35,970 nucleotides of DNA from an uncultured delta proteobacterium (lineage in GTDB: Bacteria > Myxococcota_A > Polyangia > Polyangiales > JADJMO01). The first letter of the stretch is position 1; each line of letters begins with the position of its first letter. Positions 142 to 26,033 of this stretch are shown here, piece by piece. The stretch covers positions 1 to 35,970 of the forward strand of contig CAIXWQ010000084.1 in assembly GCA_903923175.1 (NCBI GenBank), read 5' to 3'. The position numbers and the translations under genes were made by a program. The notes beneath the pieces were generated by a model. The model was not told where the DNA came from, searched no databases, and was given only the letters and a program-made list of their open reading frames with translations.

Positions 142-1035
142 CTGCGGCGTCGGCGCTGGTCGCAGGCCGACCTCGCGAGGGAGCTCGGCATCTCCCCCGC
201 GGCGCTCCGAAAGCGCCTCATCGAGCTTCAGACGAGCGGGCTGCCGCTGGACGCCTCGGTCGAACACCCGCACGTGATTTGGCGGATCGACGCGAGCTGG
301 TACCCCGGCGCGCTCGTCATCGAGCAGCGTGAGGTCGCCGACTTGCTGCGCATCCTCCTCGAGGCGCCGCGCGGTCGCGGGCGCGAGCGCTTGCTCGCCA
401 AGCTGCGCGCGACGCACCCGAGCTCGGTGCCGCACGGCGCCGACGACGCGATGGTGCCCGCGGGGTTCAGCGAGCAGGAGCAGGCGCATCGCGCGCTGAT
501 CGAGGACGCGGCGCTGCAGCGCGTGCCGCTGCACTTCAGCTACGAGTCGCCGACGTCGAGCCCGTCGTTGTGGCGGCACGCCTCGGTGCAGCGGGTCTTC
601 GTCGGGCCGCAGCTCCGGTTCGTGGCCGTGTGCCATCGAAGCGGCGAGGCGCGCGTCTTTCGAGCGAGTCGGGTGCTTGCCGGGCGACTCGATCCGTCGA
701 CCGCATATCGCAGCTTGTCACGCGAGGCGGTCGACGCGATCGCCGCGCGCATGGTCGACGGGTTCGACGGCCCGGGCGCGGTCGTGCGCTGCGAGCTCGT
801 GCTGCTCGCCCCCGAGGCGCGCTGGACCGTGCAGCAGATCCCCGCCGCGCAGCCGCGGTTGGAGCCGGTCGCCGACGGCGTGCGCGTCGTGGTCGACACG
901 GCCGCCGTCGTCCCGCTCGCGCGGTGGGTCGTCGGGCTCGGACGCCTCGCGCGTTGCGAGAGCTCGGAGCTGCGCGAGGCCGTTCGAGCGCTGGCCGCGG
1001 AGGCACTGAAGGCCCCGCCGCGCGCGGGGGACTGA
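142..1035 (+). CDS. WYL-domain transcriptional regulator, 5' end apparently truncated
   Basis: The frame is open from 97 to the TGA at 1033-1035. It encodes an N-terminal helix-turn-helix (QADLARELGISPAALRKRL, about residues 10-28 counted from the CTG at 142), a linker and a WYL-like domain (about residues 110-190). WYL proteins bind DNA, often sense nucleic-acid ligands, and commonly sit beside CRISPR-Cas and other defence loci. There is no ATG, GTG or TTG in frame between the stop at 94 and the GTG at 274, and that GTG would discard the HTH. Either translation starts at the CTG at 142 or the first few codons were lost when the upstream repeats arrived. It precedes cas3 by 128 bp on the same strand, so control of the cas operon is plausible but inferred. 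Confidence 0.7.
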   Translation: MRRRRWSQADLARELGISPAALRKRLIELQTSGLPLDASVEHPHVIWRIDASWYPGALVIEQREVADLLRILLEAPRGRGRERLLAKLRATHPSSVPHGADDAMVPAGFSEQEQAHRALIEDAALQRVPLHFSYESPTSSPSLWRHASVQRVFVGPQLRFVAVCHRSGEARVFRASRVLAGRLDPSTAYRSLSREAVDAIAARMVDGFDGPGAVVRCELVLLAPEARWTVQQIPAAQPRLEPVADGVRVVVDTAAVVPLARWVVGLGRLARCESSELREAVRALAAEALKAPPRAGD

Positions 1036-1163
1036 ACACGGGCGCAGTCACGTCCAACCGCACGAGGGGTTGGGCCGAGAGGAGGACGCAGAGTGTCGCG
1101 GCTCGTCAGGTTCGATCGTCTCGACTCGTCGCAACGGCTGGGGCCTGCCGGAGGAATCCACGA

Positions 1164-3761
1164 ATGAACGCGTACTCGGACTGGTTCCAGAAGGTCGCCG
1201 GCGCGCCGCCCCACCCGTGGCAGGCGGAGCTCGGCGGCGACGCCACGCTGCGCGATCGCCTGCTCCGCATTCCGACCGGGTTCGGCAAGACGGCCGGCAC
1301 CGTGATTCCGTGGCTGTTCCACCGCGTGGTCCAAGGTGACCGGCGCTGGCCCACGCGCCTCGTCTTCTCGCTGCCGATGCGCGTCTTGGTCGAGCAGACC
1401 GAGCGCGCCGTGCGCGGTTGGACGCAGAGCCTCGCGGCCCCGCCACCGGTGTACGTGCTGCTCGGCGGCCGCGAAGAGGCACGCTGGCTCGATCAGCTCG
1501 ATCGCCCGGCGATCCTGATCGGCACCCAGGACATGCTCCTCTCGCGGGCGCTCAACCGCGGGTACGGCTCTGCGCGCGGCGCCTGGCCCATGGAGATGGG
1601 CCAGTTGCTCCGCGACGCCCTCTGGGTCGTGGATGAAGTGCAGCTCATGGACGTCGGGCTCGCGACGACCGCGCAGCTGCGTGCCTTCCTCGCCCAAGAC
1701 GAAGCGGCGCTCGGGCCCGCGCCGAAGCCCACGGCGATCTGGTGGATGAGCGCGACGCTCCAACCGCGTTGGCTGGAGACCGTCGACTACGCGCGCGTCA
1801 GCGCCGCGGCGCCCGCTTCCCAGACCTCGATCCCGCCCGCCGCGCGGACGGGCGCGCTCTGGGAGATCCCGAAGCTGCTCCGGCTCGAGCCCTCGGTCAG
1901 CGCCCCCGACGAGATCGCCAAGCGCGCCCACGCGCTCCATCAGGCCGGCCAGACCACGCTCGTGGTCCTCAACACCGTGGACCGAGCGAGCAAGACCTTC
2001 CGCGAGCTCCAGAAGCTCGTCGCCAAGCGCGGCGCCGCCGCGCCCGAGCTGCGGCTCGTGCACAGCCGCTTCCGCGGCGCCGAGCGCCGCCGCTGGGACT
2101 TCCTGCAGCGCGGCGCGACGGTCGCGGCCGCGGGGCGGATCATCGTCTCGACGCAGGTCATCGAGGCGGGCGTCGATCTCTCCGCGCAGTGCCTCGTCAC
2201 CGACCTCGCGCCCTGGGCCAGCCTCGTCCAGCGCTTCGGGCGGTGCGCGCGCTACGCCGGCGACACGGGCGTCGTCCACGTCGTGGGGAGCCCTGCCGAA
2301 GGCGCGAAGGCCGCGCCGTACACCGGTGAGGAGCTCGCGGCGGCGGCAGCGGCGCTCACGCAGCTCGGCACGCCGGACGTCGGCCCCCGTACGCTCGAAG
2401 CCGTCGAAGCGCGCTGGGCCGAGCACGAGCCCGAACGGCTCCGGGCCCTCTATCCGTACGCGCCGCTCCACGTCCTGCGGCGGCGCGACTTCGACGATCT
2501 CTTCGACACCACGCCCGATCTCTCGGGCGCCGATCTCGACGTCGGTCGCTACATCCGCACCGGCGAGGAGCGCGACGTCTCCGTCTTCTGGCGACCGATC
2601 GAAGACGACGGCCGCCGCGTGCTCGACGCCGTCGAAGCGCCGACCCGCGACGAGCTCTGCCCGGTCGCCATCGGCGACGTGCGCAAGTGGCTGGAGGGCT
2701 CGCACCGCGCCTGGGCGCGCGACTACGTCGACGGCCACTGGCATCGCGTGGAGCCGCGCCGGGTCTACCCCGGGATGCAGCTGCTGCTCTCCCACCGGGA
2801 GGGGGGCTACGATCCGATCGCCGGCTGGGACCCGAGCGCGAAGCTGCCGGTCTCGGCGCCCGAGTCCGACGCAGCCGACGCGGCGGCCGACACTCGACTG
2901 ATCGACGGGAGCGCCAGCGCCGACGCCGACGCGCTCGCCGTCGCGCAGTGGAAGACAATCGCGACGCACGCACGCGAAGCGGGCGAGGCCGCCGCCGACC
3001 TGGCGCGCGAGCTGGCGCTCCCCGCGGCGCTCGGCGACTGCCTCACCCTCGCGGCGCGCTGGCACGACGTCGGCAAGGGGCATGCGCAGTTCCAGGCGGC
3101 GATCCGCGACGACGCGCGCGCGCGAGCGGGCGGCACCGCCGTGCGCCGCGACCTCGCGAAGGCCCCTCACGACGCCTGGCGCCGGCCCGACCCGTACCCC
3201 GCGCGCCCCGGCTTCCGCCACGAGCTCGCGAGCACGCTCGCCCTTTTCGAGACGCTCCGCGCCGTCGATCCGCAACACCCCGCGCTGCTCGGCGACTGCC
3301 AGGAGCTGCTCGACGCCCTCGGCGTCGCGCCGGCCGAGGCGCCCGCGATCTCCCTGCGCGAGCACCCGCTCGGGCGCGAGCTCGCGGCCCTCGACGCCGA
3401 CGCCTTCGATCTCGTCGCGTACCTGGTCTGCGCGCATCACGGCAAGGTGCGCTGCGCGTGGTCGAGCACGCCACGCGATCAGGAGCGCGATCACGGCGGC
3501 ATCCACGGCGTGGTCGAGGGAGACCAGCTCGCCGCGCTCGAGCTCCCCGACGCCGCCGGCACGCCGGTGACGCTACCCACGCTGACGCTGTCGCTCGACG
3601 CCGCGGCGATGGGGCTCGGCCCGCGCTACGGCCGCTCCTGGAGCGATCGCGTCCAGGGGCTTCTGCGCCGCTGGGGCCCCGCCACGCTCGCCTACCTCGA
3701 AGCCTGCCTCCGCGTCGCCGACTGGCGCGCGTCGGCCCTCACCACGGAGACGCAGTCGTGA
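1164..3761 (+). CDS. cas3: Cas3 helicase-nuclease, type I-G (HD domain C-terminal)
   Basis: This 865-residue protein is recruited by the crRNA-bound Cascade complex to unwind and shred target DNA. The superfamily 2 helicase comes first: Walker A PTGFGKT at residues 37-43, then a DEVQ box (DExx motif II), and motif VI-like QRFGRCAR. The HD nuclease is C-terminal: His634-Asp635 in RWHDVGKGH, a downstream RHE, and AHHGK with His758-His759. Helicase-then-HD order is characteristic of the I-U/I-G form, whereas most Cas3 proteins have HD first. The ATG at 1164 has GGAGG nine bases upstream and the protein starts with a typical MNAYSDWF end. The intergenic gap to the WYL gene holds a small CCAACC/GGTTGG hairpin near 1055. 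The stop overlaps the csx17 start (GTGA), indicating translational coupling. Confidence 0.93.
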   Translation: MNAYSDWFQKVAGAPPHPWQAELGGDATLRDRLLRIPTGFGKTAGTVIPWLFHRVVQGDRRWPTRLVFSLPMRVLVEQTERAVRGWTQSLAAPPPVYVLLGGREEARWLDQLDRPAILIGTQDMLLSRALNRGYGSARGAWPMEMGQLLRDALWVVDEVQLMDVGLATTAQLRAFLAQDEAALGPAPKPTAIWWMSATLQPRWLETVDYARVSAAAPASQTSIPPAARTGALWEIPKLLRLEPSVSAPDEIAKRAHALHQAGQTTLVVLNTVDRASKTFRELQKLVAKRGAAAPELRLVHSRFRGAERRRWDFLQRGATVAAAGRIIVSTQVIEAGVDLSAQCLVTDLAPWASLVQRFGRCARYAGDTGVVHVVGSPAEGAKAAPYTGEELAAAAAALTQLGTPDVGPRTLEAVEARWAEHEPERLRALYPYAPLHVLRRRDFDDLFDTTPDLSGADLDVGRYIRTGEERDVSVFWRPIEDDGRRVLDAVEAPTRDELCPVAIGDVRKWLEGSHRAWARDYVDGHWHRVEPRRVYPGMQLLLSHREGGYDPIAGWDPSAKLPVSAPESDAADAAADTRLIDGSASADADALAVAQWKTIATHAREAGEAAADLARELALPAALGDCLTLAARWHDVGKGHAQFQAAIRDDARARAGGTAVRRDLAKAPHDAWRRPDPYPARPGFRHELASTLALFETLRAVDPQHPALLGDCQELLDALGVAPAEAPAISLREHPLGRELAALDADAFDLVAYLVCAHHGKVRCAWSSTPRDQERDHGGIHGVVEGDQLAALELPDAAGTPVTLPTLTLSLDAAAMGLGPRYGRSWSDRVQGLLRRWGPATLAYLEACLRVADWRASALTTETQS

Positions 3762-5920
3762 GCCTCCACGTGCACGCGCTCAGGGGCTGCGCGCCGACGC
3801 CGCTCGCGCACTACCTCAAGGCCCTGGGTGTCCTGCGCCTGGTCGCCACGCAACGCGACGAAGCGGCGCGGGGCTTCTGGAAGGACGACGTCTTCCACCT
3901 CGCGACCACGCTCGACCGCGACGCGCTGCTGCGGTTCTTCTGCGACGAGTACGCGCCGACGCCGATGCTCTCGCCGTGGAACGGCGGGAGCGGGTTCTAC
4001 CCGAAGGACTCCAAGGAGGGGATCAACGCGATCGCCACCTCGCCGGCCGCGCGCTTCGCGTCGTACCGCTCGGCGATCGAGCGAGCTCGCGCGCAAGTCT
4101 CGTCGCGCACCGAGAGCCCGAAGAAGGAGGCCAAGGACGCGCTGCTGGCCGAGTGCGCGCGCGAGTGGCAGGACGCCGAAGGCGCGTGGCTCGCGGCCGC
4201 CATCTCGCTCGAGCAGGACGGCACGCCGCGCTACCCGGCGCTCCTGGGGACGGGTGGCAACGACGGCCGGCTCGACTTCACCAACAACGCGATGCAGCGC
4301 CTCACCGAGCTGGTCGACGCCGCCACCGGCGAGGCACGACCGCACGCGCGACCGCTGGCGGAGCTCGCGCTCTTCGGTGGGCCCGTCCGGGGCCTCGAGA
4401 GCGGGCGAGCGATCGGGCAGTTCCTCCCGGGCGCGGCCGGCGGCGCGAACGGCACGGCCGGCTTCGACGCCGGGAGCCTCATCAACCCTTGGGACTTCGT
4501 GCTCATGCTCGAAGGCGCGCTCGTCTTCCGCGTCGCGGCGCTTCGTCGACTACAAGGCGCGGATCTCGCGCAGGCGGCAGCGCCCTTCGCGCTCCGCGGC
4601 GTGACCGAGGGCTACGCGAGCGCCTCCGACGCCGACGCCTCCGCGCGCGGCGAGCAATGGGTGCCGCTGTGGGGCCGCCCCGCGACGTTCGCCGAGACGG
4701 CGCGGATGTTCGCCGAGGCTCGGCTCTGCGGAGGTCGCCGCAGCACCCAGAGCGCGCTCGACGCGGCGCGCGCCGTCGCGCGTTTCGGGGTCGAGCGCGG
4801 CGTCACGGGCTTCGCGCGGTTCGCGTTCCTCGAGCGCAACGGGCAGGCCAACCTCGCGGTGCCGCTGGGCACGTTCGCGGTCGAGCACCGCCCCGACGCG
4901 CGGCTGCTCGACGAGCTCGACGGCTGGCTCGATCGCCTGCGCCGGGCCGCGCGGGAGAAGTCACCACCGACCTCGGTGGTGCGCTCGCTCCGGCGGATCG
5001 AGTCGCTCGCGATGGCCGCCTGCGGGCCCAGCGCGTCGCGCGAGACGTGGGCCTCGCTGGTCATCGAGCTCGGCGAGGCGGAGGACGCGTTCGCGCGGCG
5101 CGCGCACGCGACCGCCAAGTCGCACCTGCAGCCACTGCCGCTGCTGTCGGCAGGTTGGCTCGCCGCGCTCGACGACGGCTCCGCGGAGGTCCGCGTCGCG
5201 CTGGCGATCGCCTCGCAGCGTGCGCCCGTGCGGCACGGCGCGGCCGACGCGCTCGGGCCCATCCGCGCGCACTGCCTGCCGCTCGACGACTCGTTCCGAC
5301 GGTTCGCGACCGCCGGCAGCGCCGACCGGCCGCACCTCGTGGGCGATCCACGCGTCCTCTGGCGAGGCCAGGATCTGGCGAGCGATCTCGCCGCGATCGC
5401 GCTGCGGCGGGCCGTCGAGGCGCACGGCGCGGGGCACGAGGCGCTGCCGCTGATCGGGCAAGCCTTCGCCGAGCTCGCCGACGTGCGCGCGTTCGTCGAA
5501 GGGCGCCTCGACGACGCCCGCATCGCGAGCCTGGCGCGCGGGCTGATGGCGCTCGACTTCCGGCGCGAGCTGCGCGCCGGCGACGGCACTCGCGGGCCGC
5601 GCGAGCCCGCCGATCCGCTCCACGCGCTCTTCCGCGTCGCCTACCTGCCAGAGCCGGTCGGCGAGCTGCGGCCGCGCTGCGATCCGACCATCCTGCGCAC
5701 GCTCGTCGCCGGTCGGCTCACCGACGCGGTGCGCCTCGCCACCCGTCGGCTCGTCGCGATGGGAATTCGCCCGAAGCTCCAGCTCGCCGGCGGCGACGCG
5801 CGCCTCGCGCTCCGCCTCGCCGCCACCTGCGCCATCCCGATCGCGCGCGGGAACCTGCGCACGCTCATCGCCGCGATCGGCAAACCGTTCCACGCCGTCT
5901 CGACCCCGGAGGCCTCATGA
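3758..5920 (+). CDS. csx17: Csx17, large subunit (Cas8-like) of the type I-G effector
   Basis: This 720-residue protein opens with the family signature GCAPTPLAHYLKALGVLRLV (residues about 9-28) and contains LLGTGGNDGRLDFTNN, both diagnostic of Csx17 (Dpsyc subtype). In I-G systems Csx17 takes the place of Cas8, the large subunit expected to recognise the PAM and help recruit Cas3. The GTG start at 3758 overlaps the cas3 stop by four bases and is in frame with the signature. An upstream in-frame extension inside cas3 is a shadow and was discarded. The stop overlaps the csb1 ATG in the same way. Length fits the family. No truncation or frameshift is seen. Confidence 0.9.
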   Translation: MSLHVHALRGCAPTPLAHYLKALGVLRLVATQRDEAARGFWKDDVFHLATTLDRDALLRFFCDEYAPTPMLSPWNGGSGFYPKDSKEGINAIATSPAARFASYRSAIERARAQVSSRTESPKKEAKDALLAECAREWQDAEGAWLAAAISLEQDGTPRYPALLGTGGNDGRLDFTNNAMQRLTELVDAATGEARPHARPLAELALFGGPVRGLESGRAIGQFLPGAAGGANGTAGFDAGSLINPWDFVLMLEGALVFRVAALRRLQGADLAQAAAPFALRGVTEGYASASDADASARGEQWVPLWGRPATFAETARMFAEARLCGGRRSTQSALDAARAVARFGVERGVTGFARFAFLERNGQANLAVPLGTFAVEHRPDARLLDELDGWLDRLRRAAREKSPPTSVVRSLRRIESLAMAACGPSASRETWASLVIELGEAEDAFARRAHATAKSHLQPLPLLSAGWLAALDDGSAEVRVALAIASQRAPVRHGAADALGPIRAHCLPLDDSFRRFATAGSADRPHLVGDPRVLWRGQDLASDLAAIALRRAVEAHGAGHEALPLIGQAFAELADVRAFVEGRLDDARIASLARGLMALDFRRELRAGDGTRGPREPADPLHALFRVAYLPEPVGELRPRCDPTILRTLVAGRLTDAVRLATRRLVAMGIRPKLQLAGGDARLALRLAATCAIPIARGNLRTLIAAIGKPFHAVSTPEAS

Positions 5921-6885
5921 CTCTCGATCTGTCCGCGCTTCTCCCCGAAAAGGATCCCCGCCCCGCCCGCCTCCTCGTCGAGGCCGAGCTGCGGCCCGTG
6001 CAGGGCGCGCGCTTCCAGCCCACCGGCTTCCCCGATCTCGGCGCCGCAGTGTTCGATACGCGCGAGGGGCAGCGGCTGCTCGTCGAGAGCGCGCAGAGCA
6101 TGGCGAACCGCCTCGAGGCGGTCTGCTGGGATCGCGCGCGCAACGAGCTCGTACCCGAGCTCGCCGGGCTGTCGTACGTGCGCGTCGAGCGCCCAGACGG
6201 TCAGTTCCTGACCAGCTCCGTCATCGAGGCGCATCGGCTCAACTCGCCGTACATCCTCGAAGGCAAGGACCGCGGGCTGCTCAAGACGCTGGAGGCCGAG
6301 ACCAAGGGCCTCGACGAGGGCGCGCTGGAGCGCAGCAAGCTCGCGGCGATCGTGTTCGGCTACGACGCGAGCGCGCTGATCCACGGGCTGTTCCTCGCCA
6401 AGAAGGAGCTCGTGGGCGGTCGGCTGCGCATCGAGCGGGCGCTGTCGTCGTTCATCGAGGCCGAGGGGGTGCGCGTCGCGGCCTCCGGCGGCGTGAAGAA
6501 CGATCACGTCAACCCCTCGGGCGACACCGAGAAGGGCTTCGGCAACGTGCCCTTCCAGCGGGACGAGTACACCGCCGAGAAGGTCACCGCCTTCTTCTCG
6601 CTCGATCTCGCCGAGATCCGTGGCTTCGGGCTCGGGGCCGCGGGCGAGCGGCTGCTGGTCGCGCTCGCGCTCTTCAAGGTGCTCTCGTTCCTCGACGCGC
6701 CGATGCGCCTGCGCACGGCGTGCGACTTCGAGCTGCGCGGGACGCCGAAGATCGCTCGGCCCGAAGGCTTCCAGCTCCCGTCGCTCACGACCGTCCGCGG
6801 CGCGCTGCCTGCGCTGATCGACGCGTGCGCGAAGAGCTTCCGCGGGAGCAAGGGCGTCACCAAGGTCGCGTACGAGAAGGCCTGA
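5917..6885 (+). CDS. csb1: Csb1, Cas7-type backbone subunit (GSU0053 family)
   Basis: This 322-residue protein is the RAMP-fold Cas7 equivalent that polymerises along the crRNA spacer to form the Cascade backbone. Recognisable family features are the N-terminal PVQGARFQPTGFPDLG segment, the SAQSMANRLE helix, SSVIEAHRLNSPYIL, a glycine-rich stretch and the NDHVNPSG motif in the middle. It begins at an ATG overlapping the csx17 stop (ATGA) and ends four bases before csb2, so expression is coupled to both. Length matches Csb1 relatives of 300-350 residues. Confidence 0.92.
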   Translation: MTLDLSALLPEKDPRPARLLVEAELRPVQGARFQPTGFPDLGAAVFDTREGQRLLVESAQSMANRLEAVCWDRARNELVPELAGLSYVRVERPDGQFLTSSVIEAHRLNSPYILEGKDRGLLKTLEAETKGLDEGALERSKLAAIVFGYDASALIHGLFLAKKELVGGRLRIERALSSFIEAEGVRVAASGGVKNDHVNPSGDTEKGFGNVPFQRDEYTAEKVTAFFSLDLAEIRGFGLGAAGERLLVALALFKVLSFLDAPMRLRTACDFELRGTPKIARPEGFQLPSLTTVRGALPALIDACAKSFRGSKGVTKVAYEKA

Positions 6886-6889
6886 CGCC

Positions 6890-8488
6890 ATGCTCGCCAT
6901 CGCGGCTACGTTTCCGGCGGGGCGCTACCACGCGACGCCGTGGGGGATGCACGTCAACGAGGGGGCGATCGAGTGGCCGCCGAGCCCCTGGCGCTTCCTG
7001 CGCGCGCTGATGGCGACGGGCTTCGGTCGCCTCGGCTGGTCGAGCGTGCCCGCGGAGGCGCGGTCGCTCTTCGAGTCGCTCGCGTCGACGCTGCCGACCT
7101 ATCACTTGCCGGAGGCGCAGGCCGCGCACACGCGCCACTACATGCCGCTGTACGGCGGCAACACGACCGAGGTGATCGACGCCTTCGCCTACGTGGGCGA
7201 CGAGCCGCTGGTCCTGGCCTACGACGTCACGCTCGAAGGGGCCGAGCGCACGATGCTCGACGCGCTGCTCGGCGCCATGCCGTACCTCGGCCGCGCGGAG
7301 TCCTGGGTCGAGGCGCGACGCGTCGACGCGGTGCCCGGCGGGCTGCGCCCGTGCGTGCCTGCCGAGACGATCCCTGGCCCGGGGCTCGAGCGCGTCTCGC
7401 TGCTCGCGCCCGAGACCGCGGGGCGCTACGCGGCCTTCCGCGAGCAGGCCATCGCGCGCGAGCTGGGCGCGGCTAGCGCGGCTAGCGCGGCGAGCGCGGC
7501 GGCGAAGCCCGATGGCAGCAAGCCCCCGAAGAAGGGCGCTGCGCCGGCGCGCGCGAAGCTCGAAGGGCTCTTCCCACGCGACCTGATCGAGGTGCTCCGG
7601 ATCGACACGCCGACGCTCCAGAAGCAGGGATGGAGCGAGCCGCCGGGGACGCGCTGGGTGTCGTACTGGCGCGCGGCGGGGGCGCTCCGGGTCGGTCCGC
7701 GCGCGGCGCCGGCGCGACGGCACGGCGACCACGCCGACACGGCGCTGCTCGCGCTCTCGTCGGACGCCGTGCGCTCGGACGTGCTGCCGCCGATGCGCGA
7801 CGCCGTGCGCCGCCTCGGCGCGCTGCACGACGCGCTGGTGCGCGCCTCGGATCGGGGCGAGGCCGGGCCGGCGATCGTGTTCACCGGGCGCGTCGACGGT
7901 CAGCCGGTGCCGGCGCACGCGCACGCGAGCCTGATCCCGCTCTCGCTCGGCCGGCGGGAGGACCGGATGGACCACGTCCTGATCCACGCGCCGATGGGGC
8001 TCGACGGCGACGCGCGCGACGCGATCGCCCGCGTTCGCAAGACGTGGGCGGCGGGGCTGCCGGACATCTTCGTGTCGCTCGCCGGGGTCGGCCGCAGAGA
8101 GTCGTTCGCGTCGCTGGTGCCCGAGCTGGGTTCGAGCGCGATCTGGCGCTCGGCGACGCCATTCGTGCTGCCGCGTCATCTCAAGGCGAAGGGGAAGGAC
8201 ACGCTGGTCGGGCAGGTGCAGGCGGAGCTCGCGACGCGGGCGCTGCCTCCGGCCAAGCTCGTCGAGGTGAAGCTGGCGGACGGCTCGTACGTCGACGCCG
8301 GCCAGCTCGCGAGCGGGCCGCTGCGGCTCTCGCTCGACTTCCGACACTTCCGCACGGCGCGCGACGGTCGCCCGCCGCCCCAGAGCTCGACGTACGCGCT
8401 GCGCCTGACGTTCGACGCCACGCTGCGCGGCCCGATCGCGCTCGGGTACGCGGCGCACTTCGGGCTGGGCGTGCTGCGGCCGGAGTGA
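6890..8488 (+). CDS. csb2: Csb2, Cas5-Cas6 fusion (GSU0054 family)
   Basis: A 532-residue protein fusing a Cas5-like N-terminal part, which caps the 5' handle of the crRNA, to a Cas6-like C-terminal part, which cuts the repeat beside its hairpin. The N-terminus (FPAGRYHATPW, then EWPPSPWRFLRAL) is typical of the GSU0054 family. A low-complexity Ala/Ser linker of repeated AAS units (about residues 193-205), then a Lys/Pro-rich stretch, separates the two parts. The linker DNA is itself repetitive (7468-7500). The C-terminal part ends in a glycine-rich loop (GYAAHFGLGVL) as in Cas6 folds. I could not assign the catalytic residues by eye. Csb2 replaces a stand-alone cas6 here; none is present elsewhere. 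Confidence 0.9.
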   Translation: MLAIAATFPAGRYHATPWGMHVNEGAIEWPPSPWRFLRALMATGFGRLGWSSVPAEARSLFESLASTLPTYHLPEAQAAHTRHYMPLYGGNTTEVIDAFAYVGDEPLVLAYDVTLEGAERTMLDALLGAMPYLGRAESWVEARRVDAVPGGLRPCVPAETIPGPGLERVSLLAPETAGRYAAFREQAIARELGAASAASAASAAAKPDGSKPPKKGAAPARAKLEGLFPRDLIEVLRIDTPTLQKQGWSEPPGTRWVSYWRAAGALRVGPRAAPARRHGDHADTALLALSSDAVRSDVLPPMRDAVRRLGALHDALVRASDRGEAGPAIVFTGRVDGQPVPAHAHASLIPLSLGRREDRMDHVLIHAPMGLDGDARDAIARVRKTWAAGLPDIFVSLAGVGRRESFASLVPELGSSAIWRSATPFVLPRHLKAKGKDTLVGQVQAELATRALPPAKLVEVKLADGSYVDAGQLASGPLRLSLDFRHFRTARDGRPPPQSSTYALRLTFDATLRGPIALGYAAHFGLGVLRPE

Positions 8489-8492
8489 GCCG

Positions 8493-10349
8493 GTGGCGAG
8501 CCCGACCGAGGTCCGGGGCGGCGGTCAGCAGGGCGGGCCGCCCGGACACGCCGCTGACCAGCCGCGCGCGATCGAGGCGCCGGCGCTGGTGCCCGCCAGG
8601 ATGGTGAACGAGGTGCTCTACTGCGAGCGCATCGTTCACCTCGAGTGGGCCCAGCAGGAGTTCGAGCACAACGCGTACACGGCGGAGGGGAACGCGGTGC
8701 ATGCCCGCATCGACGCCGGGGGCGGCGCGTTGCCTGCGCCGCCGGCCTGGCGCGAGGTGGACGAGGAGGAGCCCGACGAGCCCGCGCCTTTCACGGCGCG
8801 ATCGGTGTGGCTGTCGTCCGAGCACCTGGGGCTCACGGCGAAGATCGATCTCGTCGAGGGCGACGCGGACGGTGCGGTCGTGCCGGTGGAGTACAAGCGG
8901 GGGGCCGCGCCCGACGAGCCCGCGGGGGCGTTCCTGCCGGAGCGCGCGCAGCTCTGCGCGCAGGTGCTGCTGCTGCGCGAGCATGGGTACCGCTCTGACG
9001 AGGCGGCGATCTGGTTCGCGAGGTCCCGCCGCCGCGTCGCGATCGTGATCGACGACGCGCTGATCGCGACGACCCTCGACGCCATCGCGCGAGCGCGCGC
9101 GGTCGTCTCGCGCGCGGAGCCGCCGCCGCCGCTCGAAGACAGCCCGAAGTGCGCGGGTTGCTCGCTGGTCGGCATCTGCCTCCCGGACGAGACGAACCTG
9201 CTCCGACGCGACCGCGGCGAGGCGCTCGAGCCGGCGACGGACGAGGACGTGGTCCCAGAGGAGCCGCTCGATCCGGATCCTTGGGGGCTTGCGGGCTCGG
9301 ATCGCTCGCTGGATCTCGGCTTGCGGCGCCTGCACCCGGCGCGCGACGACCGCCTTCCGCTGTACGTGCAGGAGCAAGGGGCGCGGGTGGGGCTGGATGG
9401 CGAGTGCCTGCGGGTGCAGTCGAAGGCGGGGTCGATCGTCGCGCGACTCGCGAACACCTCTCAGGTCGCGCTGATGGGGAACGTGCAGCTGTCGACGCAG
9501 GCGATGCGCGCGTGTCTGGAGCGCGACATCCCGATCTCGTTCTTCAGCTACGGCGGCTGGCACTATGGCCGCGCGGTGGGGCACGACTCCAAGAACGTCG
9601 AGCTACGGATCGCCCAGCACGCGGCCGCGGCCGACGCCTCGACGTGCCTGGCGCTCGCGAGGCGCTTCGTCGTCGCCAAGATCCGGAACGCGCGGACGAT
9701 GCTGCGGCGCAACCACGTCGAGGCGCTCGAGGTGGACCTGGGCGAGCTCGACCGCTTGGGCCACGAGGCCGCGACGGCGCCCGCGCTCGCGTCGCTTCTC
9801 GGCTACGAGGGGACGGCGGCGCGGCTCTACTTCGGCCGATTCACCGGCATGCTGAGGGGCGACGCAGCGGCGACGGGCGCGTTCGATCTGGAGGGGCGCA
9901 ACCGGCGGCCGCCGCGCGATCCCATCAACGCGCTGCTCTCGTTCGCCTACGCGCTGCTGGCGAAGGACTTCGCCGTCGCGCTGAGCGCGGTCGGGCTCGA
10001 TCCGCTCCTCGGCTTCTACCACCAGCCGCGGTTCGGGCGCCCGGCGCTCGCGCTGGATTTGATGGAGGAGTTCCGGCCGATCGTGGGTGACTCGGTGGTG
10101 ATCGGGGCGATCAACAACGGCGTGTTCGCGGCCTCGGATTTCGTGGTCACACCCGCAGCCGCCTCCCTGACCCCCGCAGCCCGCAAGCGGCTGATCGCGG
10201 CCTACGAGCGCCGCATGGATCAGCTGGTGACGCACCCCGTGTTCGGGTACCGCATCTCGTACCGACGCGTCTTGGAGGTGCAGGCGCGCCTGCTCGCGCG
10301 CTTGTTGCTGGGCGAGATCCGCGAGTACCCGTCGTTCCTGACACGGTGA
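8493..10349 (+). CDS. cas4-cas1: Cas4-Cas1 fusion, spacer-acquisition nuclease/integrase
   Basis: A 618-residue fusion. The Cas4 half (about 35-240) is a RecB-like nuclease: Cys44 in EVLYCERI, the PVEYKRG motif with Glu133 and Lys135, and a C-terminal cluster Cys220, Cys223, Cys229, giving the four cysteines of the usual Fe-S cluster. The Cas1 half (about 275-618) has the metal-binding triad Glu439 (LLGYEG), His510 (GFYHQP) and Glu525 (LMEEFRP). Cas4 trims prespacers and selects those with the right PAM; Cas1 with Cas2 inserts them at the leader end. Cas4-Cas1 fusion is a hallmark of I-U/I-G. The GTG at 8493 gives a 36-residue Gly/Pro-rich preface; the ATG at 8601 is an alternative start just before the Cas4 core. 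Confidence 0.93.
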   Translation: MASPTEVRGGGQQGGPPGHAADQPRAIEAPALVPARMVNEVLYCERIVHLEWAQQEFEHNAYTAEGNAVHARIDAGGGALPAPPAWREVDEEEPDEPAPFTARSVWLSSEHLGLTAKIDLVEGDADGAVVPVEYKRGAAPDEPAGAFLPERAQLCAQVLLLREHGYRSDEAAIWFARSRRRVAIVIDDALIATTLDAIARARAVVSRAEPPPPLEDSPKCAGCSLVGICLPDETNLLRRDRGEALEPATDEDVVPEEPLDPDPWGLAGSDRSLDLGLRRLHPARDDRLPLYVQEQGARVGLDGECLRVQSKAGSIVARLANTSQVALMGNVQLSTQAMRACLERDIPISFFSYGGWHYGRAVGHDSKNVELRIAQHAAAADASTCLALARRFVVAKIRNARTMLRRNHVEALEVDLGELDRLGHEAATAPALASLLGYEGTAARLYFGRFTGMLRGDAAATGAFDLEGRNRRPPRDPINALLSFAYALLAKDFAVALSAVGLDPLLGFYHQPRFGRPALALDLMEEFRPIVGDSVVIGAINNGVFAASDFVVTPAAASLTPAARKRLIAAYERRMDQLVTHPVFGYRISYRRVLEVQARLLARLLLGEIREYPSFLTR

Positions 10350-10357
10350 GGTAGGGC

Positions 10358-10648
10358 ATGCGGCAGACCTACGTCGTGAGCTACGACATCTGTGACCCGA
10401 AGCGCCTGCGCAAGGTCTTCAAGACGCTCCGCGGCTACGGCGACCATCTTCAGCTCTCGGTGTTCCGCTGCGAGCTGAGCGCCCGCGAGCTGGTGGAGTT
10501 GCGGACGAAGCTCGCGGCGGTCATGCATCAGGGCGAGGATCAGGTCCTCTTCGTGGACGTCGGGCCTGCGGAGGGGCGCGGCGCCGGCTCCATCTCCTCG
10601 CTGGGGCGGACGTACACTCACCCGGAACGGCATGCGCTCGTCGTCTGA
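10358..10648 (+). CDS. cas2: Cas2, adaptation complex subunit
   Basis: A 96-residue protein of normal Cas2 length, starting YVVSYDICDPKRLRKV with the conserved Asp10 after the first beta strand, followed by the usual LQLSVFRCEL strand. Cas2 dimers bridge two Cas1 dimers in the spacer integration complex. GAGGTAGGG lies just upstream of the ATG. It is the last cas gene and directly precedes the leader, the classic arrangement for acquisition at the leader-repeat junction. Confidence 0.96.
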   Translation: MRQTYVVSYDICDPKRLRKVFKTLRGYGDHLQLSVFRCELSARELVELRTKLAAVMHQGEDQVLFVDVGPAEGRGAGSISSLGRTYTHPERHALVV

Positions 10649-10849
10649 GCTCTCTCCGGGCGAGCGGTCCGGTGCCGCTCGAACCCCGGGGGGCGCTCGC
10701 AAGGCGCGCTTGGTCTTTGAAAACCCGTGGTTTCGAAGAGGTCCCGCGCGAACGGTGTGGATGCACATCGTGCGAAAAGGAGGCGCGCGCGGGACCTCTC
10801 GCGAACCGGGCGGCAAGCGCGCGGGATCGTTGGTAGGATCGGGGGGGCT
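10649..10849 (+). promoter_or_regulatory. CRISPR leader with a perfect 14-bp inverted repeat
   Basis: Non-coding stretch between cas2 and the first repeat. The left part has the locally A/T-richer GGTCTTTGAAAACC (10712-10725), which resembles leader-type promoter or integration signals. AGAGGTCCCGCGCG at 10737-10750 is perfectly complementary to CGCGCGGGACCTCT at 10786-10799. The 35 bases between include a small GCAC/GTGC hairpin. The inverted repeat could bind a regulator, position Cas1-Cas2, or form a hairpin in the pre-crRNA. Its assignment as leader rests on position, repeat orientation and lack of an ORF. The transcription start is not identified. Confidence 0.75.
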
Positions 10850-13236
10850 CTCTCCGTCGCTGAAGGGCGACGGCCACGTTGAAGCGGTTCGCGTTCGGCG
10901 CGTCTCGCGAGCCGTGCGACCTCTCCGTCGCTGAAGGGCGACGGCCACGTTGAAGCCGTCATGCCGAAGCTTCGGGCGGCGCTCGGGCGCATGCTCTCCG
11001 TCGCTGAAGGGCGACGGCCACGTTGAAGCGTCTTCTCGTCCTTCTTCACGAGCACCTCGAAGCGCGCCTCTCCGTCGCTGAAGGGCGACGGCCACGTTGA
11101 AGCCTACGGCGTACCTGCACAATGAACTGACCTCCTACCACTCTCCGTCGCTGAAGGGCGACGGCCACGTTGAAGCCGCATCGCCTGGCGTCGGTCGGCG
11201 CGGGCCCGCTCCTCTCCCTCGCTGAAGGGCGACGGCCACGTTGAAGCGGCTTCGACACGAAGCACGGCATGCACCTCGTACGGCTCTCCGTCGCTGAAGG
11301 GCGACGGCCACGTTGAAGCGCATGGGCTGGACTCACGCGAAGTTTGCGGTTTTCGCGCCTCTCCGTCGCTGAAGGGCGACGGCCACGTTGAAGCGCTGAC
11401 CTCTCCCGCGATCGCTGACCGCCCACGAAGGACTCTCCGTCGCTGAAGGGCGACGGCCACGTTGAAGCACGCAGACGCCGGACGTGCCCGTCAGCATCGA
11501 GCACTCTCCGTCGCTGAAGGGCGACGGCCACGTTGAAGCCGGTGTCAGGGTGTGCTTTCCGGGAAAGGAATCCGTCTCTCCGTCGCTGAAGGGCGACGGC
11601 CACGTTGAAGCACGTCGTCGACGTTCGCGGTGCCGAAGTGCTCCTTGCTCTCCGTCGCTGAAGGGCGACGGCCACGTTGAAGCAGGCTTGGCCATGGGTG
11701 GCGGCGCACCGTGACGCGAGGGCTCTCCGTCGCTGAAGGGCGACGGCCACGTTGAAGCCGGCTGCCCCCGCGTCGCGTCGTAGCGCTTCCACGCCTCTCC
11801 GTCGCTGAAGGGCGACGGCCACGTTGAAGCTCGTCGCCGTCCAACACCCCGACGGCGGGGAAGAGCCTCTCCGTCGCTGAAGGGCGACGGCCACGTTGAA
11901 GCTCGATGGGTCTGCTGACGAAGGCCGACCCAGAGTGGACTCTCCGTCGCTGAAGGGCGACGGCCACGTTGAAGCCTCAAGAGACGCCGACGGCGAGAAG
12001 CGGAGAGCCCCCCGCCTCTCCGTCGCTGAAGGGCGACGGCCACGTTGAAGCAGCACGGCGCCCGACTGCACGGCGAGGTGCACGAGCTCTCCGTCGCTGA
12101 AGGGCGACGGCCACGTTGAAGCTAGTGCGCGAGAAGCTTCGCGAGAGCGAGCACGATCCTCTCCGTCGCTGAAGGGCGACGGCCACGTTGAAGCAGGAAG
12201 ATCGAGTGAATCACAGCAGCCCCCGATCGCTCTCCGTCGCTGAAGGGCGACGGCCACGTTGAAGCCCGATGCACTGCCACGCGAGGTACGGCACGCGGTC
12301 CGCTCTCCGTCGCTGAAGGGCGACGGCCACGTTGAAGCGGCCTGGTGGTCGGCGCCAGCCGCTATTCGACGCGGTTGGGAAGCTCGAGCCGTCTCTCCGT
12401 CGCTGAAGGGCGACGGCCACGTTGAAGCGGCCTGGTGGTCGGCGCGGGCGAGACGGACTCGGCGCTCTCCGTCGCTGAAGGGCGACGGCCACGTTGAAGC
12501 CACCAGTAGGGCCGCGTGAGCACGAACTTCGCGCCGGCTCTCCGTCGCTGAAGGGCGACGGCCACGTTGAAGCCCGTCGTTGTTCGGGTAGCGGTCGATC
12601 GAGTGCTTCGAGCTCTCCGTCGCTGAAGGGCGACGGCCACGTTGAAGCACGCCCGCGCCGGCGATGCGCCGGTCGAGCTCCACCGCGCTCTCCGTCGCTG
12701 AAGGGCGACGGCCACGTTGAAGCCTCGGCGCGTGTGGCCGGCCCGTGCGGCCGTCGATCACCTCTCCGTCGCTGAAGGGCGACGGCCACGTTGAAGCTCG
12801 GCCATTCCGAGCGCCGCCTCCCGCCACGGCCCCCTCTCCGTCGCTGAAGGGCGACGGCCACGTTGAAGCCGATTCGCACGCCGTCAAGGACTGCACATCC
12901 GTCACGCCTCTCCGTCGCTGAAGGGCGACGGCCACGTTGAAGCAGCGCAAACACAAGCGGTGGCGACGGCGCACTGCGCGACTCTCCGTCGCTGAAGGGC
13001 GACGGCCACGTTGAAGCCGCCGTATGTGCGACGAGTGGATCGAGGGCGTCGCGCCTCTCCGTCGCTGAAGGGCGACGGCCACGTTGAAGCCTCAACCCCG
13101 AGATCGACGTCGAGGGGCTCGCGCCGTCTCTCCGTCGCTGAAGGGCGACGGCCACGTTGAAGCCCGGATGCGGCGCAATGGTGGAGACTGGACCCCAGGA
13201 CTCTCCGTCGCTGAAGGGCGACGGCCACGTTGAAGC
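10850..13236 (+). CRISPR. Type I-G CRISPR array, 33 repeats of 36 bp and 32 spacers
   Basis: The repeat begins CTCTCCGTCGC, has the loop TGAAGG, the arm GCGACGG, then CCAC and ends GTTGAAGC. CCGTCGC and GCGACGG form a 7-bp hairpin, and the last eight bases resemble the usual crRNA 5' handle (compare ATTGAAAC), so transcription is left to right from the cas2-side leader. Spacers are 35-40 bp except spacer 21 (12339-12392, 54 bp). Repeat 6 (11212-11247) has one substitution, G to C at its seventh base; the others I checked are identical, including the terminal one. No typical degenerate trailer repeat is seen: the array stops abruptly against a tRNA-Leu sequence. By eye I found no spacer matching the prophage in this window. 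Confidence 0.98.
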
Positions 13237-13237
13237 G

Positions 13238-13312
13238 GCGGACTAGGCAGTCGCGCCGGATTTAGGTTCCGGCGCCGAGAGGCTTGCGGGTTCAAGTCCC
13301 GCCCGTCGCACC
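13238..13312 (+). tRNA. tRNA-Leu(UAG)-like sequence lacking its own 5' acceptor strand
   Basis: From the D arm to the 3' end this is a normal tRNA-Leu: D stem GCG/CGC (13238-13240, 13252-13254), anticodon stem CCGGA/TCCGG around loop TTTAGGT with anticodon TAG (13263-13265), long variable arm GCC-GAGA-GGC, T stem GCGGG/CCCGC with loop TTCAAGT, acceptor 3' strand CCGTCGC (13303-13309), discriminator A and CC. The nine bases where positions 1-9 should be (13229-13237) belong to the last CRISPR repeat and do not pair. However, GCGACGG at 13218-13224 inside that repeat is perfectly complementary to the acceptor 3' strand, leaving 11 extra nucleotides before the D stem. Most likely this is a tRNA fragment used as an attachment site, not a working tRNA. 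Confidence 0.75.
13238..13312. other. Probable phage attachment site (tRNA-Leu core)
   Basis: The tRNA-Leu 3' portion abuts a convergent tyrosine integrase gene whose stop codon lies inside the D loop (13243-13245). Tyrosine integrases commonly recombine within tRNA 3' halves, and the recombined core then sits next to int. Core length cannot be measured because the other junction is outside the window. Orientation (tRNA 3' end facing the phage) fits a left junction or an unintegrated attP. A normal left junction would show an intact tRNA, which is not the case here. Confidence 0.7.
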
Positions 13313-14610
13313 CCTTGTTTTGCCGTGGTCTGCATTGCTCCGGATTTCCCTCCGTCGAGCGACGGGTCGCTGGCGACGATTGCCGACAACTCAGGGATGG
13401 CTTCGCTCAGTGGGAGCAGCTCCCCGAGGCCGAGCTCTTCGGCCTGGCGGGCCGCTCGGCGGTAGCGCTGGATCATCACCGACGACTTGTGGCCGGTTCG
13501 GTCGGAGACCCACTGCTCGGTCTTCCCGTTGGCGAGCGAGAGGGTGATGAAGGTCGCGCGGAGGTCGTGCGCTCGGAGGCGCATCCGCTTCTCGGTCGCC
13601 TCGAAGAGGACCGCGCGATCGATCCCCGCGGGCTTGAGGTCGCCGCGGAGCTGGCTCGCGAGGTGGCGCACGTTCGGGGGGACGATGCCGTCGCCGAAGA
13701 CGTAGGAGCCCTCGGTCCGCATCTTCCGCCAGGCGCGCAGGGCGGTCGCGACGCCGGGGGAGAGCGCCCAGGCGCGGGGGTCGTCGGTCTTGTTCTCCTC
13801 GAGGCGGAGCACCCCGCGGCGCAGGTCGATGTCGACCCACTCGATGAGCGCGGCCTCCGAGGCACGCGTCCCCTCGCGGTCGAGGAAGCCCTCGAGCATG
13901 CGGCGCTCGAGGGGGACGGCGGCGCACGCGAGGAGCGCGGCGTCCTCCTCGGGGTAGAGGTAGAGGCCGAGGCGCGGCTTGAGCGCTTTCGGGAGCCAGC
14001 CGAACGGGATCGGCGAGTGCGTGATCAGCTTCGCCGGGTAGACGGCGAGGCGGCAGATCCGAACGATCAGCTGCGCGATGTGCCGGCGCGACCGCTTGGG
14101 CATCGGGCGGCGCATGATCTCCTCGGCGTGGTCGAGGGTGAACGCCTTGATCGGGAGGTCGACGACGTAGGGCAGCACGTACGACGAGAGCCGGGCCCGG
14201 TTGCAGTTCTTGTCGTGGTCGACCGGGCGCACGTGATCGGGGTAGGCGCGGTGCAGGTCGCCCGAGAGCCACTTCTCGGCGAGCGTCTTGAAGGTCTCGC
14301 CCGCGGCGACCGGGATGGCGTCGCGCTCCTCGAGCCCATCGAGCACCCCCTCGAGCACGCGCAGCGCGGCGGCGAGGCGATCGCCCGCGGCGGCGGCGAG
14401 CTGCTCGAGCATCGGATCGATCAAGTCCGAGCGGCCCGCCTTCCGGAGCCGATGGACGGCCGACGCGAGGATCGCCCCGCGCTCGGTCGCCTCGGTCTCG
14501 GTCGTGCAGGTCGGCATCGCCTGCGACTTGCGCTTCTTCGGCGCGATCGAGAGCGAGACGTACCAGGTCCCCCGGCTCTCGTAGACGCTGCCGGTCGCCT
14601 TGCGGGCCAT
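13243..14610 (-). CDS. int: Tyrosine site-specific recombinase (phage integrase)
   Basis: A 455-residue integrase. The N-terminus (GSVYESRGTWYVSLSI) is the arm-binding domain; the catalytic domain carries Arg249 (EGTRASE), His348 and Arg351 (HDLR), His374 (RTGHKS) and the nucleophile Tyr383 (QRYRR). It cuts and rejoins DNA at the adjacent tRNA-Leu core to integrate or excise the phage. The ATG at 14610 overlaps the stop of the excisionase-like gene (ATGA). The last 22 residues (434-455, containing RAGLEPASLSAPEPK) are encoded antisense to the tRNA sequence and the stop is in its D loop. A much longer upstream extension of the frame is a shadow of the neighbouring genes. Confidence 0.93.
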   Translation of the reverse strand: MARKATGSVYESRGTWYVSLSIAPKKRKSQAMPTCTTETEATERGAILASAVHRLRKAGRSDLIDPMLEQLAAAAGDRLAAALRVLEGVLDGLEERDAIPVAAGETFKTLAEKWLSGDLHRAYPDHVRPVDHDKNCNRARLSSYVLPYVVDLPIKAFTLDHAEEIMRRPMPKRSRRHIAQLIVRICRLAVYPAKLITHSPIPFGWLPKALKPRLGLYLYPEEDAALLACAAVPLERRMLEGFLDREGTRASEAALIEWVDIDLRRGVLRLEENKTDDPRAWALSPGVATALRAWRKMRTEGSYVFGDGIVPPNVRHLASQLRGDLKPAGIDRAVLFEATEKRMRLRAHDLRATFITLSLANGKTEQWVSDRTGHKSSVMIQRYRRAARQAEELGLGELLPLSEAIPELSAIVASDPSLDGGKSGAMQTTAKQGVRRAGLEPASLSAPEPKSGATA

Positions 14611-15026
14611 CAGGCGCGCCCCCCGCTGCGGGTCTTTAGCCCGAGCTTGCGGCGCACCTGGTCGTCGAGCTCGCCAGCGCCCGGGATGACCGGCACGACC
14701 GTCGGCTTCGCCTGCGACCCACCCGAGAGCAGCCACGCGAGCACGTCCGCGCGGCGCGCGAAGACCCGCTTGCCGTGGCGGTAGCTCGGGAAGCGGCCGA
14801 GCCGGGCGGCCTTCAGGTAGCGCGCGCGCTCGCACGGCGCCGAGACCTGGTCGACGACCTCGTCGGCCGAGGGGCCCTGCGACGCGGCGATCCGCGGAAC
14901 CATCCGCTCGATCAGCGCGTCCGCGATCAGATCCACGACCTCGGAGAGCCCGAGGCGCGGCGCGCGCGGCGCGGGGTGCACGTCCGCGACGGCGGCTGCT
15001 GCTGCTCGACTCGCTCGCTCGGACAT
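14610..15026 (-). CDS. Excisionase-like DNA-binding protein
   Basis: This 138-residue protein has a C-terminal half resembling MerR/AlpA-type excisionase folds: RYLKAARLGRFPSYRHGKRV followed by FARRADVLAWLL (helix, winged loop, helix). The N-terminal part is Ala-rich and unrecognised. Directional factors of this type bend attachment-site DNA and steer integrase towards excision. The gene is immediately upstream of int on the same strand and overlaps its start by four bases, the usual int-xis pairing. The ATG at 15026 has GGGGAGG upstream. The excisionase role is inferred from fold and position. Confidence 0.65.
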   Translation of the reverse strand: MSERASRAAAAAVADVHPAPRAPRLGLSEVVDLIADALIERMVPRIAASQGPSADEVVDQVSAPCERARYLKAARLGRFPSYRHGKRVFARRADVLAWLLSGGSQAKPTVVPVIPGAGELDDQVRRKLGLKTRSGGRA

Positions 15027-23201: not shown

Positions 23202-23766
23202 TCCGAACGGCTGGGTCCAGATGGTCGACGGCACGCCGTTCTGGCCGATGGCGGCGGAGGTCGAGGACGTCGCGATCCGCAACATCGCGCACGCGCTCTC
23301 GAACATCTGCCGCTTCGGCGGGCACGTGCGGACGTTCTACAGCGTCGCGCAGCACTCGGTGCTCGTGAGCTTCGTCTGCGACCCCGCGGACGCGCTGCAC
23401 GGCCTGCTCCACGACGCGTCGGAAGGGCTCGGGCTCGTCGACTTACCGCGGCCGGTGAAGCACGCGGCGGCGCTCGCGGGGTACCGCGAGGCCGAGCGGC
23501 GCCTCGAGCTGGTGATCGCGCGCGCGTTCGGGTTGCCGGAGGAGATGCCCATCTCGGTGAAGCGGGCCGACGATGTGCTGCTCGCGACCGAGCGGCGCGA
23601 TCTCATGTCGACCCCCGCGATCCCGTGGTCGACCAGGGAGCAGACCTTCGAGCCGATGGCCGCGACGATCGAACCGTGGGCGCCGGAGCGCGCGCGCACG
23701 GCCTTCCTCGACCGCTTCGCCGAGCTGACCGGGTGGCGCGGCGGCTACCCGTGGGGGGCCGAGTGA
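23185..23766 (+). CDS. HD-domain phosphohydrolase (YfbR/5'-nucleotidase-like)
   Basis: A 193-residue HD protein: the first motif region RTFYSVAQHSVLVS contains His57, and LLHDASEGL carries the paired His76-Asp77, followed by a later Asp in VKRADDVLLATE. This pattern fits the YfbR-like 5'-deoxynucleotidases and phage HD nucleotidases that act on dNMPs. In a phage it could adjust nucleotide pools during replication. ATG at 23185 has GGGGAGGAG upstream. Substrate is not predictable from the sequence. Confidence 0.8.
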   Translation: MSTPRDPNGWVQMVDGTPFWPMAAEVEDVAIRNIAHALSNICRFGGHVRTFYSVAQHSVLVSFVCDPADALHGLLHDASEGLGLVDLPRPVKHAAALAGYREAERRLELVIARAFGLPEEMPISVKRADDVLLATERRDLMSTPAIPWSTREQTFEPMAATIEPWAPERARTAFLDRFAELTGWRGGYPWGAE

Positions 23767-24002: not shown

Positions 24003-24172
24003 CGGCCTGGTACAAGCACGTGCCGACCGGCCGGGTCGGCATCGTCGTCGCAGCGGCGTGGCTCGAGGGGCACGGCCTGCTCGAGGTCGCCGGGCGGATC
24101 TCGCTGCGCCCCGTCGTCACGCACTGGCGCGATCTCGAGCTGGTGCGCGTGCAGCGCGGGAGCGCGCCATGA
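23999..24172 (+). CDS. Small beta-rich phage protein
   Basis: A 57-residue protein (starts AWYKHVPTGRVGIVVAAAWL) with an SH3-like strand pattern. GTG at 23999 overlaps the preceding TGA, and its own TGA overlaps the ATG of the methyltransferase gene. No family recognised. Confidence 0.5.
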   Translation: MTAWYKHVPTGRVGIVVAAAWLEGHGLLEVAGRISLRPVVTHWRDLELVRVQRGSAP

Positions 24173-24870
24173 GCGCCACCGGCCGCAGCGACGTCCGCCA
24201 CCCAGACGATTTCTATTCCACGCCCGCCTGGGCGACGATCGCGCTCCTCCGCGTGCTCGGGCTTCCGTCGCGAAGCACGGTGCTCGATCCCGCCTGCGGC
24301 GAGGGCGCGATCCTCGAGGTCGTCCGGCAGCTCGGGCACGTGACAGTCGGCGTCGAGCTCGACGCCGATCGGGCCGGCCGCGCTCGCGGGCAGGGCCACT
24401 TCGTCACCACGGGCGACGCGCTCGCGTTCGCGGAGTGGCCGGGGGCCGCCGACGCGATCGTGATGAACCCGCCCTACACGCTGGCGATGGAGTTCGTCGT
24501 GCGCGCGATCGCCGAGGCGCGCCCGTGGGGGATCGACGTTGCTGCGCTGCTCCGGCTGCCGTGGCTCGCGAGCGTCGGGCGCGCGGCGTTCCACCGCGAG
24601 CATCCGAGCGACGTGTGCGTGCTGCCGCGCCGTCCGGAGTTCGCGGCGTCGATCAAATGCAAGGGGCGCAAGCGCGAGAAGGGGGACGCGCGGCCGCCGT
24701 GCTCCTGGTCCGTCCTGCTGCCGATCGACGCGCCGCGCTTCTCGGCGTGCCCGTTGTGCGGCTCGAAGGTCGACACCGTGACGACCGACGCGACCGACTA
24801 CGCATGGTTCGTCTGGGGGCCGGGGCGAGGCGGGCGGTGGTCGATCCTCACCACACCGGAGGCTGCGTGA
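24169..24870 (+). CDS. DNA adenine-type methyltransferase
   Basis: A 233-residue class I SAM-dependent methyltransferase: motif I VLDPACGEGAIL (residues 38-49) binds SAM, an acidic VELDADR follows, and motif IV NPPY (100-103) is the catalytic tetrapeptide of N6-adenine (or N4-cytosine) DNA methylases. A late CPLCGSK could be half of a metal site. No restriction endonuclease is adjacent, so it is likely an orphan phage methylase that protects against host restriction. Target sequence unknown. Confidence 0.85.
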   Translation: MSATGRSDVRHPDDFYSTPAWATIALLRVLGLPSRSTVLDPACGEGAILEVVRQLGHVTVGVELDADRAGRARGQGHFVTTGDALAFAEWPGAADAIVMNPPYTLAMEFVVRAIAEARPWGIDVAALLRLPWLASVGRAAFHREHPSDVCVLPRRPEFAASIKCKGRKREKGDARPPCSWSVLLPIDAPRFSACPLCGSKVDTVTTDATDYAWFVWGPGRGGRWSILTTPEAA

Positions 24871-25854: not shown

Positions 25855-26033
25855 AGACCATCGATCAGCGCGCGCGCGACTGCGTCGCGTGGATCAGGGC
25901 GTACGACGCGCACGTCGCCGGGCGACTGCGCGCGCCAGCCGAGAAGGACCGCGACGACGCGGAGTACATCGCGAGGGCGATCTCGCTCGCGATCACGGCG
26001 GAGCGGCGCGCGGTGAAGCGCGAGAGGGTGTGA
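25851..26033 (+). CDS. Small helical phage protein
   Basis: A 60-residue, strongly helical and basic protein (DQRARDCVAWIRAYDAHVAG then YIARAISLAITAERR). ATG overlaps the ASCH stop (ATGA), and its TGA overlaps the next ATG (TGATG). No family recognised. Confidence 0.5.
   Translation: MKTIDQRARDCVAWIRAYDAHVAGRLRAPAEKDRDDAEYIARAISLAITAERRAVKRERV

Follow-up and report, generated by a model that had tools for sequence, protein, structure and literature searches.

A tRNA-Leu-like sequence at the distal end of a type I-G CRISPR array looks like the attachment junction of a temperate prophage

Introduction

Why does a CRISPR array run, without any gap, into a tRNA? The question is raised by a stretch of 35,970 nucleotides (hereafter the window), the complete contig C84 of a metagenome bin (10.7 Mb in 1422 contigs, 3.75% contamination), in which the last, perfect repeat of an array (13201-13236) is followed directly by tRNA-Leu(UAG), from its position G9 at 13237 to its 3′ end at 13311. 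A sequence-only reading had described this join, with coordinates and base pairs that proved exact, and had rightly recognized a tyrosine-integrase att junction. It offered three explanations: an episome carrying both array and phage, two islands in tandem with the CRISPR island ending in a tRNA remnant, or a pseudo-spacer directed against tRNA-Leu or att sites. tRNA genes are used as phage integration sites because their sequence is conserved, and in haloarchaea some spacers are reported to match tRNA genes. Here we ask which DNA lies on each side of this junction, and how the two came together.

Results

An ordinary type I-G locus, unusual only at its distal end

The left part of the window carries a type I-G CRISPR-cas operon on the forward strand (274-10648). 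PADLOC profiles identify a WYL regulator (274-1035), cas3 (about 1164-3761; Cas3g), cas8g/csx17 (about 3773-5920; Cas8g), cas7g/csb1 (ending at 6885; Cas7g), cas5-6g/csb2 (6890-8488; Cas56g), a cas4/1 fusion (8493-10349; Cas4/Cas1g) and cas2 (10358-10648; Cas2g), all adjoining the array. A presumed leader, assigned by its position only, separates cas2 from the first repeat (10649-10849), and the array itself, on the same strand, comprises 33 repeats and 32 spacers (10850-13236). The 36-nt repeat, CTCTCCGTCGCTGAAGGGCGACGGCCACGTTGAAGC, is perfect in 32 of the 33 copies, the last one included, and carries a single mismatch in the other, while 31 of the 32 spacers measure 35-40 nt and one measures 54 nt. 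With its full gene set, its Cas4/1 fusion and a 36-nt repeat ending in GTTGAAGC, the locus resembles other type I-G systems and is an ordinary member of the type, which departs from it only at the distal end of the array.

Two further features of this region deserve mention. The 54-nt spacer is number 21 (12339-12392), and its first 16 nt are common to spacer 22 (12429-12464), an oddity that may reflect aberrant acquisition or recombination. At the left end of the contig (1-140) there are repeated GGTGATCACGATG motifs, with a 94% copy at C361 and weaker copies elsewhere; they probably belong to a mobile element that ended the contig.

The acceptor-stem match is a coincidence

ARAGORN calls a tRNA-Leu(TAG) at 13231-13313, and the Rfam tRNA model gives the junction 28.2 bits, below its cut-off of 29. 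The sequence-only reading had drawn attention to GCGACGG in the repeat (13218-13224), complementary to CCGTCGC in the acceptor 3′ strand (13303-13309). Both motifs are present, and an intact tRNA-Leu(UAG) with the acceptor GCGACGG, which that reading had suggested looking for, does exist in this genome, on C1358. The meaning given to the match does not hold. A random 36-nt piece of window DNA contains GCGACGG with a probability of about 0.018; a related genome, G040, combines a tRNA-Leu acceptor of GCGAGAG with a type I-G repeat that likewise has the GCGACGG stem; and folding of the RNA leaves the repeat in a hairpin of its own. We therefore dropped acceptor complementarity as the cause of the join. 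A working chimeric tRNA, which had already been considered the least likely outcome, can be rejected given the sub-threshold score, the altered D loop, the lack of a contiguous 5′ acceptor strand and the intact gene elsewhere.

A temperate phage begins inside the anticodon loop

The sequence from 13237 to 13311 looks, by sequence comparison, like an attL-type junction of a temperate prophage. Its 51-bp core (13261-13311, forward strand) is the same, base for base, as the 3′ half of the host's tRNA-Leu(UAG), with identical copies on C103, C1358 and C1253 and a nearly identical one on C480, and it lies beside the gene of a tyrosine integrase (13243-14619, reverse strand; PF00589, phrog_1). The integrase-side junction does not restore a complete tRNA, positions 1-8 being missing. 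The core is followed by an integrase-side attP arm (13312-13383, forward strand) common to C103 and C480, and one end of C103 has a left arm, GTCGAGGCGGT, then the 51-bp core and then 68 nt of this integrase arm, that is, an attP whose left arm differs from the left side of the window junction. Overlapping the start of the core is a perfect 8-bp inverted repeat around a 7-bp loop, GCGCCGGA TTTAGGT TCCGGCGC (13253-13275; in full, GCGCCGGATTTAGGTTCCGGCGC), the anticodon stem-loop of the tRNA. This 23-bp element is likely the core site of the integrase, with a 7-bp overlap; a class of tRNA integration with crossover in the anticodon loop has been described (PMC4383910).

The integrase reading frame crosses the att core antisense to the tRNA, as judged from the translations, an overlap also seen in two relatives (L042 and L044). 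Beyond the core the C-terminus of the protein differs among C84, C103 and C480, and attP thus lies within the int coding sequence. In this family, the frame can cross the antisense strand of the target tRNA, with integration swapping the C-terminus.

Phage genes fill the remainder of the window (14620-35970) and continue into C481 and C103. Those within the window include a nucleotide phosphatase (23221-23766), a DNA methyltransferase (24058-24870), a DUF5131 protein (25466-26968) and an endolysin (32258-32986); a gene with a DUF6745 domain (27647-29011) holds twelve-base tandem repeats in 23 registers (27880-28275). C103 encodes tail sheath, tail, protease, portal, terminase and replication proteins, and the phage appears to be temperate, contractile-tailed and myovirus-like. 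C84 leads into C481 through a 141-nt overlap, and together with a short unseen link between C481 and C103, the part of C84 from 13261, C481 and C103 would make up one temperate phage of an estimated 52 kb or so, whose ends meet in the attP on C103. The contig overlaps of 141 and 119 nt presumably correspond to k-mers of the assembler. C480 (L011, 1-13152) also has this att core and integrase arm, along with an integrase of its own (8246-10075); its first 141 nt are common to C103 and its last 141 nt to C481. This second element may be a small circle related to the phage, or a satellite of it. No relatives of the integrase or the terminase were found in IMG/VR, and the closest integrase relatives in named genomes are in Myxococcota bins.

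Integrated relatives adjoin intact tRNAs, and the fragments compared lack the D arm

The family of this integrase is present in 58 of 179 genomes of the order, with up to 8 copies in one genome. Among 39 other copies examined, 16 adjoin a complete tRNA, and none has a convincing CRISPR repeat beside it. Integrated relatives with the integrase on the same side of the core have an intact tRNA next to it (Cys, Asn, Phe, Ser, Lys, Arg, Gly, Ala and others), as in L042 (tRNA-Cys) and L044 (tRNA-Asn). The displaced or attP fragments of the family, about ten of which were compared (tRNA-Leu in G001, G002, G004 twice, C103 and G138; tRNA-Lys in G003; tRNA-Arg on C219 of this genome; tRNA-Leu-like in G165 and G084), begin at the anticodon loop and carry no D arm. 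From these comparisons, we conclude that the family recombines in the anticodon loop (TTTAGG) and that the window from 13261 rightwards is phage. In one further arrangement (L137; G004:C20, 6395-9243), a single tRNA-Leu core is flanked by two convergent integrases of the family.

The native tRNA-Leu(UAG) locus is empty in the assembly. Spread over C1358 and C1253, it is intact, contiguous with host flanks and syntenic on both sides with a genome of the same genus, which places the window junction elsewhere than at the native site. The overlap between C1358 (L012, 5283) and the end of C1253 (L013) measures exactly 141 nt and begins with TTTAGG. It suggests that a second, unbinned left context is joined to the same host flank.

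The 24-nt D-arm piece comes from the integration target

The host side of the junction comprises 24 nt (13237-13260, forward strand), GGCGGACTAGGCAGTCGCGCCGGA, spanning tRNA-Leu position 9 to the anticodon stem. This piece is identical to the tRNA-Leu consensus at 21 of 24 positions and to the host's own tRNA-Leu at 19, and on sequence grounds its D-arm and anticodon-stem part is real tRNA homology. The 24 nt to the left of comparable tRNA-Leu(UAG) att cores in the fragments match tRNA-Leu at only 4-11 positions, in contrast to the 21 in the window, which argues that the D-arm piece was contributed by the integration target and not by the phage or a displaced remnant.

Three properties of the piece bear on what that target was. 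It starts exactly at the 3′ end of the repeat, as any spacer has to, whereas a random breakpoint would fall there about once in 73 times. Its stem bases are of a foreign type (CGCGCCGGA versus CGCACCGGG in the host, with two diagnostic stem bases differing); those of the anticodon stem are often seen beyond the host's family, which fits an origin in foreign DNA. Three D-loop bases separate the piece from the 21 aligned tRNA-Leu(UAG) genes. Finally, a spacer of 35-40 nt starting at the repeat would end at 13271-13276 (at 13273 for 37 nt). The 23-bp stem-loop, the element that an anticodon-loop integrase would be expected to require, would thus lie completely or almost completely within it.

A second copy or source of the 24-nt piece was found neither in 184 genomes of the order and 379 of the phylum nor in the viral collection, viral contigs and plasmids searched. 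The variant D loop was absent from the phage-borne tRNA-Leu genes inspected, and the 438 spacers of related I-G arrays hold no matches to tRNA-Leu beyond chance. The 32 spacers of the window array include none that matches this phage.

Discussion

The exact start at the repeat end, the foreign stem bases and the fit of the stem-loop within a spacer's length lead us to prefer the following reading, to which we give a probability of about 0.45-0.5: the phage used a tRNA-derived CRISPR spacer as its secondary attB, and the prophage therefore lies within the array and splits its immune memory. In this scenario, the host would have carried a 35-40 nt spacer resembling tRNA-Leu(UAG) from position 9 to about 45 (13237 to about 13273), perhaps acquired from a mobile element with a degraded tRNA copy or from a foreign tRNA. 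As this spacer would have held the whole anticodon stem-loop, the integrase could have used it as a secondary attB, with the phage supplying the 3′ half (the core, 13261-13311) and everything to its right. Integration would then have split the array after repeat 33, leaving the older spacers beyond the prophage and abolishing the crRNA of the split spacer. Of the earlier explanations, the pseudo-spacer comes nearest to this proposal, although it is better understood as an integration target than as an anti-tRNA guide. A self-targeting or homing guide is not supported, as the 37 nt from the repeat end differ from the host tRNA at 5 of 37 positions, which falls short of the near-perfect match expected of a tRNA-targeting guide; the searches turned up no protospacer.

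The attP and the integrase-side junction of such a prophage are both present, and repeat-spacer units are seen to its left. The putative spacer abuts exactly on a repeat, and in the present sequence it has a repeat on its left only, the phage replacing its 3′ side. The far junction that integration into a spacer predicts (phage left arm, TTTAGGTTCCGGC and a repeat) is absent from the bin, as is any attR; the bin holds no CRISPR repeat on other contigs, and the core joined to a repeat was seen in no sequence compared. Degenerate repeats at C141, C900, C1227 and C312 are chance matches. C103 runs into attP without a fork and not into a repeat. These absences weigh against integration into a spacer, as do the failure to find a source for the 24-nt piece, its three distinctive D-loop bases and the lack of tRNA-Leu matches beyond chance among the 438 spacers of related arrays. 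Low coverage could account for the missing far junction.

The missing repeat is better explained by the main rival, in which the trailer end of the array already abutted a truncated tRNA-Leu pseudogene, for example because of a deletion or because the CRISPR island had brought it along by horizontal transfer, and the phage entered that pseudogene without any spacer being involved. The D-loop bases do look decayed, no repeat was found beyond the phage, and another I-G array in the order (L080) also ends in a perfect repeat bordering plain sequence. However, this requires a truncation whose breakpoint coincides precisely with the 3′ end of a perfect repeat, and the stem bases are not of the host-family type; it explains the exact abutment and the foreign bases worse, and we consider it unlikely. 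The two possibilities make different predictions. If a spacer was the target, the C103 left arm should be found joined to TTTAGGTTCCGGC and then CTCTCCGTCGCTGAAGG, and possibly phage-free cells should carry the uninterrupted spacer GGCGGACTAGGCAGTCGCGCCGGATTTAGGTTCCGGC followed by a repeat; if the target was a tRNA pseudogene, TTTAGGTTCCGGCGCC...CGTCGCAC followed by non-CRISPR sequence would be expected instead.

That two islands entered one tRNA-Leu site in tandem, the CRISPR island ending in a displaced tRNA fragment and the phage following it, is improbable. Tandem island arrays in tRNA genes are known (PMC4383910), genomes of the same family have other elements at tRNA-Leu(UAG), and the contig break at TTTAGG plus 90 host bases points to a second left context of the native site that was not binned. 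In contrast, the displaced fragments of the family never include the D arm present in the window, and the native locus was assembled without an insert. Where compared in the host's family, related I-G loci and tRNA-Leu were not on the same contigs. The attP of the phage on C103 and the empty native tRNA locus together indicate that the CRISPR locus is neither phage cargo nor part of a tandem of islands at the native tRNA.

A chimeric assembly or a mixture of strains, joined through the shared 51-bp core, strikes us as somewhat more improbable again: the sequence comes from a contaminated, fragmented metagenome bin in which the core recurs in several contigs, but the join of repeat and D arm at 13237 lies outside that core, and the 141-nt contig overlaps suggest k-mers long enough to bridge 51 bp. 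Least probable of all is the unintegrated attP of an episome or phage carrying the CRISPR-Cas locus, for although no attR was seen and both halves lie on one contig, C103 joins the same integrase arm to the phage's own left arm, and its structural genes complete a phage without cas genes.

The proposed arrangement has partial parallels among described systems. Prophage integration into CRISPR direct repeats has been reported in Streptococcus pyogenes (Varble 2021, as cited in PMC10359306). As described there, a temperate phage likewise lies within an array and interrupts it, as we infer for the window; the direct repeats are the attachment site in that case, while here it would be a tRNA-like spacer of a type I-G array in a myxobacteria-like genome. 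In the Myxococcus phage Mx8, attP lies inside the integrase gene and integration gives int a new 3′ end (PMC6070905); our phage shares this arrangement, the only respect in which the two were compared, and differs in its target, tRNA-Leu(UAG) or a mimic of it. With the islands that enter tRNA anticodon loops (Islander, PMC4383910), it has in common a crossover in the anticodon loop and a 3′ half restored by the element, whereas the recipient 5′ half in the window is 24 nt fused to a CRISPR repeat and not an intact tRNA gene. A limited literature search found no precedent for a spacer in the role of attB.

If spacers are able to take up tRNA or att sequence, recording it has a cost, as the immune memory is itself turned into a landing site. 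Should this reading be correct, it would add a second route, beside integration into repeats, by which temperate phages disrupt CRISPR arrays.
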